Source: an uncultured archaeon (GTDB lineage Archaea > Nanobdellota > Nanobdellia > Woesearchaeales > CAIVOO01). Taken from it: DNA of 47,025 nt. The notes beneath the pieces are model-generated. The model did not search any database and had not been told where the DNA came from. It saw only the letters and a program-made list of their open reading frames with translations. This document shows positions 5,481 through 7,886 of the stretch, piece by piece. The stretch lies in the NCBI GenBank assembly GCA_903904885.1, contig CAIVED010000010.1:1-47025 (forward strand). The letters are read 5' to 3'. Positions within the stretch are counted from its first letter, which is position 1. Each line of letters begins with the position of its first letter. The position numbers and the translations under genes were made by a program.

Positions 5481-6392
5481 TCAGTTCTTCACCTCATTTG
5501 TCCTGTCCCCCTTCTGCAGGTAATTTACTATGCCCTCTGCAAGCTGAATTGCTGTTCTCTTCTGCGCTTCTATTGTTGATGCCCCTAGATGCGGCAGGCC
5601 AACAAAGTTTGGCAGTTTGAATAACCTGTTTTCATATGGGTTGCCGTCCTTTCCTTCTTCTATATATACATCAAACGCTGCTCCTGCGATTCGTCTTGCT
5701 TCAAGTGCGTTGTAAACTGCAGCTTCATCAACATTTACACCCCTTGATGTGTTAATTAATATCGCAGTTTGCTTCATCAGCTGAAGTTCCCTTTCTCCAA
5801 TTAGGGGTGTTATGATTTTTGGGGTGTGCAACGTAACAAAGTCAGCAGTTTGCAATAATTCATCTAACCTGACATAGCGAACGCCGTTGCCAGAATTCAT
5901 CATATCCTGGGCGATTATTTGAACATCAAATCCCCTCAGCAGTTCTGCAACTCGCTTGCCTATCTTTCCGTAGCCAATTACCCCGACGGTTTTCCCGGTT
6001 ATCTCAACTCCCTCAAATTTCTTTTTTTGCCACAGGTTTTTTTCAGCGAGGGTTGCGTATGCCTGCGGTATGAACCTTGCGGCAGCAAACATCAGCCCCA
6101 GGGTAATCTCAGCAGCGGCATTCACATTCCCGTCAGGGGCGTTTTTTACAACAATCCCCCTCTCTGCCGCAGCCTCCAGGTCAATGTTGTCAACACCTAT
6201 GCCTGCCCTGCCGATTATTCTCAACCGGCTGGCTTTGGATATGAGTTCTCTTGTAACCCTTGTTTTGCTTCTCACAACCAAAACATCTGCTTCTGCTATT
6301 CTTTCTATTTCTGCAGGCATTATCTCATATCCTGCATCCGCAAATATCTTCTTTCCCTCATCTGCCAGCCCGTCTGTTATGAGCACTTCCAT
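5481..6392 (-). CDS. serA: D-3-phosphoglycerate dehydrogenase (short form)
   Basis: 303-aa NAD-dependent 2-hydroxyacid dehydrogenase, most like 3-phosphoglycerate dehydrogenase, the first step from 3-phosphoglycerate to serine. Seen: substrate-domain RIIGRAGIGVDNIDLEAA (catalytic Arg region), KNAPDGNVNAAAEITLGLM, Rossmann motif VGVIGYGKIGKRVAELL, INTSRGVNVDEAAVY, and the acid/base His in FVGLPHLGAST. It lacks the C-terminal ACT/ASB regulatory domains of long SerA enzymes, so feedback by serine binding to ACT is not expected. The ATG at 6392 is chosen over one 15 nt upstream because GGAGG sits 5 nt before it. A Ser/Cys-rich leader ORF precedes it, supporting a serine role over glyoxylate/hydroxypyruvate reductase, the main alternative. 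Confidence 0.88.
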   Translation of the reverse strand: MEVLITDGLADEGKKIFADAGYEIMPAEIERIAEADVLVVRSKTRVTRELISKASRLRIIGRAGIGVDNIDLEAAAERGIVVKNAPDGNVNAAAEITLGLMFAAARFIPQAYATLAEKNLWQKKKFEGVEITGKTVGVIGYGKIGKRVAELLRGFDVQIIAQDMMNSGNGVRYVRLDELLQTADFVTLHTPKIITPLIGERELQLMKQTAILINTSRGVNVDEAAVYNALEARRIAGAAFDVYIEEGKDGNPYENRLFKLPNFVGLPHLGASTIEAQKRTAIQLAEGIVNYLQKGDRTNEVKN

Positions 6393-6491
6393 TTTTCCTC
6401 CATGCAACCTTCACGCATTGGGCAATGCGGCCGGAAAAAGAGCATTGTTGTTTGAAAAAATTTCAGAACGCAAAGCCAATGAGCAGTTTAT
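6393..6491 (-). promoter_or_regulatory. Possible attenuator between leader ORF and serA
   Basis: On the minus strand four complementary segments follow the leader ORF: CATTGGC (6481-6475), CAATGC (6447-6442), GCATTG (6428-6423) and CAATGC (6420-6415). Segment 3 pairs with 4 to give a 6-7 bp hairpin (6414-6429); it can instead pair with segment 2, and segment 4 can pair imperfectly with segment 1. Two T-tracts (complement of A-runs 6455-6460 and 6435-6439) precede the hairpin and could act as archaeal T-rich terminators. The serA Shine-Dalgarno GGAGG follows. This is an inferred attenuation layout, not a recognised riboswitch. Confidence 0.4.
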
Positions 6492-6545
6492 CTACCAGGA
6501 ACTGCAACATGAAGAACCACAGTGTGAACTGTTTGGCTTTTGCAT
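6492..6545 (-). CDS. Candidate leader peptide upstream of serA
   Basis: A 17-codon ORF read on the minus strand: MQKPNSSHCGSSCCSSW then TAG. It holds six Ser, three Cys, one Gly and one Trp codon, all amino acids made from serine in one or more steps. A TATA-like box (TTTTAAATAG, about 6577-6567) is 26-30 nt upstream, so the transcript would begin at or within a nucleotide or two of this ATG: a leaderless start. The serA ATG lies ~100 nt downstream, past T-tracts and competing hairpins. The composition suggests ribosome stalling that senses serine/cysteine charging. Being this short, it could be chance; no homologues were checked. Confidence 0.5.
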   Translation of the reverse strand: MQKPNSSHCGSSCCSSW

Positions 6546-6605
6546 AGGATATTATAGGTGAAGCTACTATTTAAAATTTTCTGAAAAGAACACTATTGTT
6601 GTATA

Positions 6606-7886
6606 TTATTTCCTCCCGCTCCTTATCCTGCCATAGCTCACAGGATTCTTTATCTTGTTGCAGATGTTGTCAGGAAAGCACAGGCCCATTGAGTGGTATG
6701 CTTCCCTGCAGTTTGGCGGGAGAACTTTCTTTTTGTTCTGCTTGTGGTAGTTTAATTGCGTTACCCAGTAATTGTCTCGCAATGGTTCGGGATTCTTCTT
6801 GTTCCACTCTCTTATTAGTTCTTCAATTTTGGGGTAGTCCCATCCGCTCATTGTCAGGAAGTTGATTAATGCAAAAACAAACCTCTTTTTTCCGTCCTGC
6901 ACGCCATCTAAACCTTTTTTTATGCATGGCGGGAATAATTCCTCTGGCAAAGGAGCTTTCATGTCCTCGTAGTCCACCTTTGTTTTTTTCCCTGCGACAA
7001 AATCCTTTATTTCCTCGTTCTTTGTTATCTCCGAGCGCATTTCAGATGCCGCATCAAACAATTCCTGTGCTTCGTTTGGGATGACTTTTTCCCGGTCTAA
7101 AAATTTCATTGACACCCTGCCAAGTTTCTGCGGGTCTGCCATCTCTTTTTTGAACTCCAGAATTTTATCTGGGTCTATGGGAATGCTGACAAGATAGGAT
7201 TTTTCATTTATCGAGTAGGGCATCCTGAACATGTGCCTGCTTGATATCAAAACAGAATCAATGGCAAGAAGCTTGAACGGGTCAAAGACATTCATTCCAT
7301 TTTCTTTTTTTGTTATTTCTTCTATTGTTTTTTTTGTTTTTTCCATAATATCTTCTGCTGATTCCTTTTCAAGAATTTTCTCTGCTAAATGGGGCGCAAT
7401 CATTTCCTGAAGATATCTTGCGATTATCCTCACTCCATCAGGAAAGAAGTTTTTCATGTCTGAGGGGAATGCCTCGAATGGAACGCCAATATGGAAGCCG
7501 TGGTTTCCTGAGAATTTTACTGAAATGTTTTTTATTCCCTTGCTTCTCAGGGCTTTTACTAATAGGTCACCCGCAATTTGGGAGTATTCCAGGTACGGGC
7601 AGTCTATGTCCAGAACCAAATCCCAGCCGATTCTCAGCTTGTCCAGGTCTTTTTTTATCATGCCTGGCTGCAGTTGGAGAGGATTCTTCCACAATTCCTC
7701 AGAGCCGTGGAATGACAAAGCACCCTGCTTTGCAAAATCAGCAATGTCGGATTTGTACATCAGGACGTCCGGCCGCTTTCCAAAGCCGAAGTCGAATTTA
7801 ACTGCTATTTCCCTGTCCTTTGAACAGGCAAGAATCAGCTCCTGAACATCCTCTCTCAGATAATAATCCCGAACCCCCGTATCCAT
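6606..7886 (-). CDS. Single-chain archaeal DNA primase, PriS core fused to PriL Fe-S domain
   Basis: 426 aa. Residues 1-~300 are an archaeo-eukaryotic primase catalytic core: the DxD metal pair is D93/D95 (DLVLDIDC), SGNHGFHI at 126-133 is the nucleotide-binding S-x-H motif, and D210 with SRHMFRMPYSINEKS (216-230) matches the third Asp and R/S region of PriS. Residues ~318-415 match the PriL C-terminal [4Fe-4S] domain: PPC (C321), PPNC (C393), GLC (C403) and DNIC (C409), followed by KIKNPVSYG. Normally these are two proteins. The N-terminal helical half of PriL appears to be missing. A TATA-like box at about 7907-7918 gives a near-leaderless transcript. Makes RNA/DNA primers for replication. 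Confidence 0.87.
   Translation of the reverse strand: MDTGVRDYYLREDVQELILACSKDREIAVKFDFGFGKRPDVLMYKSDIADFAKQGALSFHGSEELWKNPLQLQPGMIKKDLDKLRIGWDLVLDIDCPYLEYSQIAGDLLVKALRSKGIKNISVKFSGNHGFHIGVPFEAFPSDMKNFFPDGVRIIARYLQEMIAPHLAEKILEKESAEDIMEKTKKTIEEITKKENGMNVFDPFKLLAIDSVLISSRHMFRMPYSINEKSYLVSIPIDPDKILEFKKEMADPQKLGRVSMKFLDREKVIPNEAQELFDAASEMRSEITKNEEIKDFVAGKKTKVDYEDMKAPLPEELFPPCIKKGLDGVQDGKKRFVFALINFLTMSGWDYPKIEELIREWNKKNPEPLRDNYWVTQLNYHKQNKKKVLPPNCREAYHSMGLCFPDNICNKIKNPVSYGRIRSGRK

Follow-up and report, generated by a model that had tools for sequence, protein, structure and literature searches.

The window analysed here (the whole stretch of DNA, 47,025 bases) is an entire contig of a 1.31-Mb genome with a completeness of 98.7%, which, as with all genomes in this study, is a metagenome-assembled genome (MAG). 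Its minus strand carries serA, and a short ORF rich in serine and cysteine lies between this gene and a TATA box. TIGR01327 matched the SerA protein with an E value of 1.7e-89 and 301 bits, under the cut-off of 454. The features of the locus are as follows.

5481..6392, minus strand: serA, D-3-phosphoglycerate dehydrogenase without ACT domain (PF00389/PF02826); ATG at 6392..6390
6401..6397, minus strand: Shine-Dalgarno (SD) sequence of serA, GGAGG, from the sequence
6439..6435, minus strand: T5 (U5) tract, from the sequence
6460..6455, minus strand: T6 (U6) tract, candidate termination site in the leader, from the sequence and the U-richness of leaders over 45 nt after the stop
6470..6543, minus strand: possible helix between 5' codons (GCAAAAGCCAA, 6543-6533) and the region after the stop (TTGGCTTTGC, 6479-6470)
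6477..6482, minus strand: post-stop element TCATTG, 9 nt 3' of the leader stop codon
6483..6505, minus strand: possible hairpin around the stop codon (GCAGTT, 6505-6500; AACTGC, 6488-6483), not significant across Ser leaders
6492..6545, minus strand: leader ORF MQKPNSSHCGSSCCSSW (also given as ATGCAAAAGCCAAACAGTTCACACTGTGGTTCTTCATGTTGCAGTTCCTGGTAG), 17 codons (6545..6492), stop codon TAG
6575..6568, minus strand: TATA box TTTAAATA of the leader-serA promoter, the box starting 30 nt 5' of the leader ATG

Directly 5' of this promoter, a protein encoded at 6606-7886 has weak matches to both the small- and large-subunit families of DNA primase (a PriS/PriL-like fusion).

The original prediction had placed a 17-codon ORF, with Ser, Cys, Gly or Trp at 11 of 17 residues, at the 5' end of the transcript expected from the TATA box, followed by two T-tracts before serA; coordinates and counts were all confirmed. 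Nine or more Ser plus Cys residues appeared in only 4 of 85,206 stop-free mononucleotide shuffles of the ORF codons (p ~5e-5), and neither the +1 nor the +2 frame was rich in these residues. Since the ATG lies 30 nt downstream of the TATA box, the transcript is probably leaderless; translation of the ORF from such an mRNA is a likely prediction, inferred from sequence alone through the TATA spacing, with start sites unmapped. The leader DNA occurs only once in this genome, and a repeat or mobile element was rejected. At the Rfam gathering score no match was found in the window, with only chance matches in the leader, and a T-box, riboswitch or other Rfam regulator was therefore rejected. At the thresholds used, TIGR00338 and PF00266 detected neither serB nor serC in this genome (G000), which does have serA, so that the serine pathway there is incompletely reconstructed.

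Because no second serA was found in the searched genomes of the host genus and family, conservation was tested across families. The sole SerA relative found in named genomes was that of a Candidatus Woesearchaeota MAG (60-62% identity). The closest relatives (62% and 52% identity) carried leader ORFs in the equivalent position, in which the Ser/Cys bias was kept but the sequence was unrelated to the window ORF: MEDSHNFRQRNKSILISVCSVLCSWASSGCGSCSGSSE in G324 (L040/L063) and MEKSAGAMMSVSSSWCSSSCSAE in G323 (L041/L064), each 5' of serA and preceded by TTTAAAT at -30 to -33. The check proposed for the prediction was thus passed, the ORF sequence drifting while position, distance to the TATA box and Ser/Cys codons stayed the same. 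On the other hand, the SerA of G324 has an ACT domain, yet the leader is present, and the claim that a missing ACT domain explains control at the leader failed.

Short ORFs were picked solely by Ser/Cys content from both strands of 41 loci (759 kb). A TATA box at -24..-38 was found in 7 of the 34 ORFs obtained, and all seven preceded a serine operon on the same strand as serA. In total, Ser leaders precede nine serine operons including that of the window, before whichever gene leads. Besides those described above, they were located before serA (MNKHSTSCSCSTSC in G018 and MSGTSHPIEVCFSSLRPLSSC, the weakest Ser leader, in G031), before serB of a serB-serC-serA operon (MRCIVNEPSSSCSR, G172), before DUF1015 of DUF1015-serC-serA operons (MLVVFRSSVCSSC, G052; MELICSSCSA, G171), and before DUF1015-serC (MKNNAVTENSFMASSINSGCNSSC, G016; TATA box 44 nt upstream). 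Since serA, serB and DUF1015 are preceded alike, this comparison of serine operons shows that the leader tracks the operon rather than any single gene.

Matching leaders were also found in two other pathways. A PALP search in leader-bearing genomes and an order-wide search for cysteine synthase showed poly-Cys leaders before cysK, including MYRYCCCCC, MINAICCC, MKPNQCCCC, MTKTTCCCDCCCC, MIKAMFCCCC, MAIKIKSCCCC, MQSNIICCC, MLKAVCCC and MQYNICCCC (the list is not exhaustive); in G043 and G158 the leader precedes cysE-cysK. In all, 28 cysteine-synthase operons have a poly-Cys leader. Two candidates came from other orders of the class, MFKALKCCGCNCSCSQCCCCK in G362 and a weaker one in G467. Among all loci fetched up to that analysis, 22 of 24 CCC-containing short ORFs with a TATA box were located before cysteine genes. 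In three genomes a tRNA gene lies between the poly-Cys leader and cysK: a tRNA-Cys in G062 (L193:1345-1419), and Rfam tRNA matches in G034 and G016 (L190:1346-1448 and L333:2841-2958), which are likely, but not established, to be intron-containing tRNA-Cys. Three Thr-rich leaders, MHSVEALKTGISLTTSTTTTTTTC (G171), MNIIEVQNYNISLAFSTMMTTMTTTC (G170) and MKTIEVKNISILMTTSMTMATTC (G168), were found ~100 nt before genes for aspartokinase or fused aspartokinase-homoserine dehydrogenase; Thr leaders were also looked for before threonine synthase, and none was found. Candidate Trp leaders before DAHP synthase (MSMKTRFKQNWRWN; L217, minus strand) and before trpE (MTSDCPWHR and MKSDCPWLGKRNI; L220 and L221, minus strand) contained too few Trp codons to be claimed.

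The anatomy of 40 leaders (9 Ser, 28 Cys and 3 Thr) was compared. A TATA hexamer at -33..-29 was found in 34 of the 40, versus 1.2% of 27,245 background short ORFs; most Ser and Cys leaders were initially picked by composition, and the count is inflated for some later ones picked partly by their TATA box. The last matching codon was no more than one codon from the stop in 38 of 40 leaders, and the target residue accounted for 39% of frame 0 versus 2-3% of the other frames (30 leaders). The 45 nt after the stop were U-rich (fraction of 0.41 versus 0.31, p = 1e-7). Two short motifs followed the stop: [CT]CATTG within 25 nt in 11 of 26 leaders versus 5 of 734 background TATA-bearing ORFs, and TTCT within 4 nt in 16 of 26 versus 36 of 734. 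The enrichment (p ~1e-14) was computed post hoc, and since the motif was spotted in the very sequences on which it was counted, these p-values are descriptive only. The distance from leader to gene was mostly ~40-170 nt, with a U tract of at least five in only ~8 of 20 measured gaps; the gaps in G018 (37 nt) and G025 (16 nt) had none. Comparison shows the ORF with its position and TATA spacing, the match of amino acid to pathway, the placement of the matching codons, the post-stop motif and the U-richness, and the conclusion stands without the weakest leaders (G031, G025, G167, G079 and G467).

The original prediction had further proposed that complementary segments form mutually exclusive hairpins. 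Such segments are present, including GCATTG/CAATGC 5' of the serA SD sequence, but mutual exclusivity was not supported: the window leader was no more stable than its shuffles (z = -1.07 and -1.16), and the GCAAAAGCCAA/TTGGCTTTGC and GCAGTT/AACTGC helices are nested. The 5' codons paired better with their own post-stop region than in mismatched combinations in the nine Ser leaders (p = 0.001) and not in Cys leaders (p = 0.53). Hairpins enclosing the stop codon stood out in the three Thr leaders, where one compensatory change was seen, and could also be made out in several Ser leaders; a combined test was significant in the Thr leaders alone, which come from related genomes, and not over the Ser or Cys sets, so that a universal stop-codon or terminator hairpin was rejected. 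No common fold emerged across the leaders, and mutually exclusive terminator/antiterminator hairpins found no statistical support. Of a bacterial-type attenuation leader before serA, the leader-peptide part was supported and the hairpin part only loosely so.

These results indicate that the window ORF is likely a regulatory leader peptide for codon-sensing control of serA, a reading without expression or ribosome-profiling data. It holds because relatives carry leaders with matching residues before Ser, Cys and Thr genes, from which we infer, by comparison and without experiments, that the window leader is one instance of a broader archaeal device. The residue-pathway match in three pathways makes codon sensing by a translating ribosome the most plausible input. 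As for the output taken alone, tRNA genes inside the controlled unit (G062, G034 and G016) together with U-rich RNA after the stop favour control of transcription; termination is inferred without transcript data, and we prefer it only by a modest margin. Archaeal termination relies on U tracts and FttA/aCPSF1 (PMC8716108, PMC11616081).

In the proposed mechanism, transcription would start at or beside the leader AUG, and a ribosome would initiate on the leaderless 5' end and reach Ser, Cys, Gly and Trp codons that abut the stop codon. When charged tRNA is sufficient, the ribosome would terminate and leave, exposing the UCAUUG element and U-rich RNA (with a stop-codon hairpin in some leaders), and transcription would stop within the leader. 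When charged tRNAs for serine-derived amino acids are scarce, it would pause at the final codons; because these lie immediately 5' of the stop, its footprint would hide both stop and element, and RNA polymerase may continue into serA. That the ORF is translated, that ribosomes stall on it, that transcription terminates and which way the system responds are all inferences, made without transcript, ribosome or growth data. A bolder version, toward which the balance of evidence does not quite tip, is a hairpin-free archaeal attenuation in which the stalled ribosome masks a conserved UUCU/UCAUUG element. That the unmasked element recruits termination in the leader (by U tract or FttA/aCPSF1), one element serving Ser, Cys and Thr leaders, is likewise held with slightly more doubt than belief.

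The rival that remains possible is translation attenuation, in which the leader would be sensed identically, with the stalled ribosome exposing the first gene's ribosome-binding site rather than preventing termination. It is retained because of G052, in which the Ser/Cys codons pair perfectly (11 bp, -13.6 kcal/mol) with RNA just 5' of the DUF1015 start, and G018, with its short gap devoid of a U tract; in the window, the SD region GGAAAAA is a possible pairing partner of CUUUUUCC. Against this, such control would bring no benefit to the tRNA genes that separate leader from cysK in three genomes, and the U-richness and common motif sit at the leader and not at the SD sequence.

The other rivals fared worse. 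Translational coupling, by which the leader stop hands a reinitiating ribosome to serA and the amino-acid content is incidental, would suit G025, where cysK follows the stop by 16 nt with the SD sequence within. However, most gaps exceed 40 nt, whereas reinitiation coupling in archaea declines above ~30 nt (PMC12548453), and amino-acid matching in three pathways is left unexplained, making this very unlikely. A small peptide with a metal-binding or redox function of its own is also very unlikely: the window ORF is Cys-rich, but the sequence is unconserved, such chemistry is absent in Thr leaders, and the residue fits the downstream pathway. A lone 17-codon ORF in 47 kb might be a fluke of pyrimidine-rich intergenic DNA reading as Ser/Cys codons; chance is all but excluded by the shuffles of the window ORF, the frame-specific bias (0.39 versus 0.02-0.03) and the recurrence of leaders before fitting genes in many families, the relatives contradicting it.

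With codon-sensing leader control as the preferred reading, known systems may be compared. Control by leader peptides matched to an amino acid is a textbook bacterial mechanism. Mycobacterial poly-Cys leaderless sORFs (Canestrari et al. 2020, cited in PMC9031893 and PMC13236596; earliest sighting, PMC4633059) have contiguous C-terminal Cys codons before cysteine/sulfur genes, with reported cysteine-responsive operon attenuation (PMC9031893, PMC13236596). The relatives' poly-Cys leaders before cysK resemble these, the window's own leader being Ser/Cys before serA. The archaeal set differs from the bacterial sORFs in having a TATA promoter, Ser and Thr besides Cys, and the shared post-stop TTCT/YCATTG; its leaderless start is predicted from TATA spacing only. 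Since the window relatives are Woesearchaeota archaea, the archaeal leaders are an analogue, not a member, of this class.

Ribosome-mediated transcription attenuation in enterics is represented by thrL, trpL, hisL and ilv (e.g. PMC1183508). The archaeal leaders share a peptide rich in the pathway amino acid 5' of the operon, and the Thr leader of G171 before a fused aspartokinase-homoserine dehydrogenase is comparable to enteric thrL-thrA. Two criteria of attenuation are fulfilled: a short ORF separates the promoter from the first structural gene, and end-product codons are enriched and kept despite sequence drift. Unlike the enteric systems, the archaeal leaders lack an SD sequence, supported alternative hairpins and a conserved intrinsic terminator, their regulatory codons adjoin the stop, and polymerase and termination (U tracts, FttA) are archaeal. 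In tnaC/Rho-type attenuation, a ribosome at the leader end conceals RNA needed by a termination factor. The proposed masking of post-stop RNA by a ribosome paused on the last leader codons would be similar, and archaeal FttA is a functional analogue of Rho (PMC11616081); its involvement here is a guess. Unlike tnaC, there was no sign of an arrest peptide, sensing being via codon supply.

The original prediction knew of no established archaeal serine attenuator; the open-access literature searched held no earlier archaeal case of amino-acid control by a leader peptide, and attenuation goes unmentioned in a review of how archaea couple transcription to translation. A hallmark of bacterial attenuation is seen here in archaea, in the form of Ser-, Cys- and Thr-matched leader ORFs. 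Archaea have transcription-translation coupling and their own termination factor, and the leaders make regulation through these testable with short reporters. In uncultured archaea they also offer an annotation handle for genes of the serine, cysteine and threonine pathways.

Within the order, the leader is absent from many serine operons. In 5 of 10 examined serine operons without leader peptide (L072, L077, L082, L110 and L068), TGTCAA/TTGACA repeats lay close to the TATA box, versus none of nine with it, and some leader-lacking operons carry a divergent ORF of ~220 aa without a Pfam match. A repressor and operator may replace the leader there. Behind Ser/Cys leaders, DUF1015 (PF06245) recurrently shares its operon with serC and serA (L075, L073 and L107), which suggests a role in serine metabolism.
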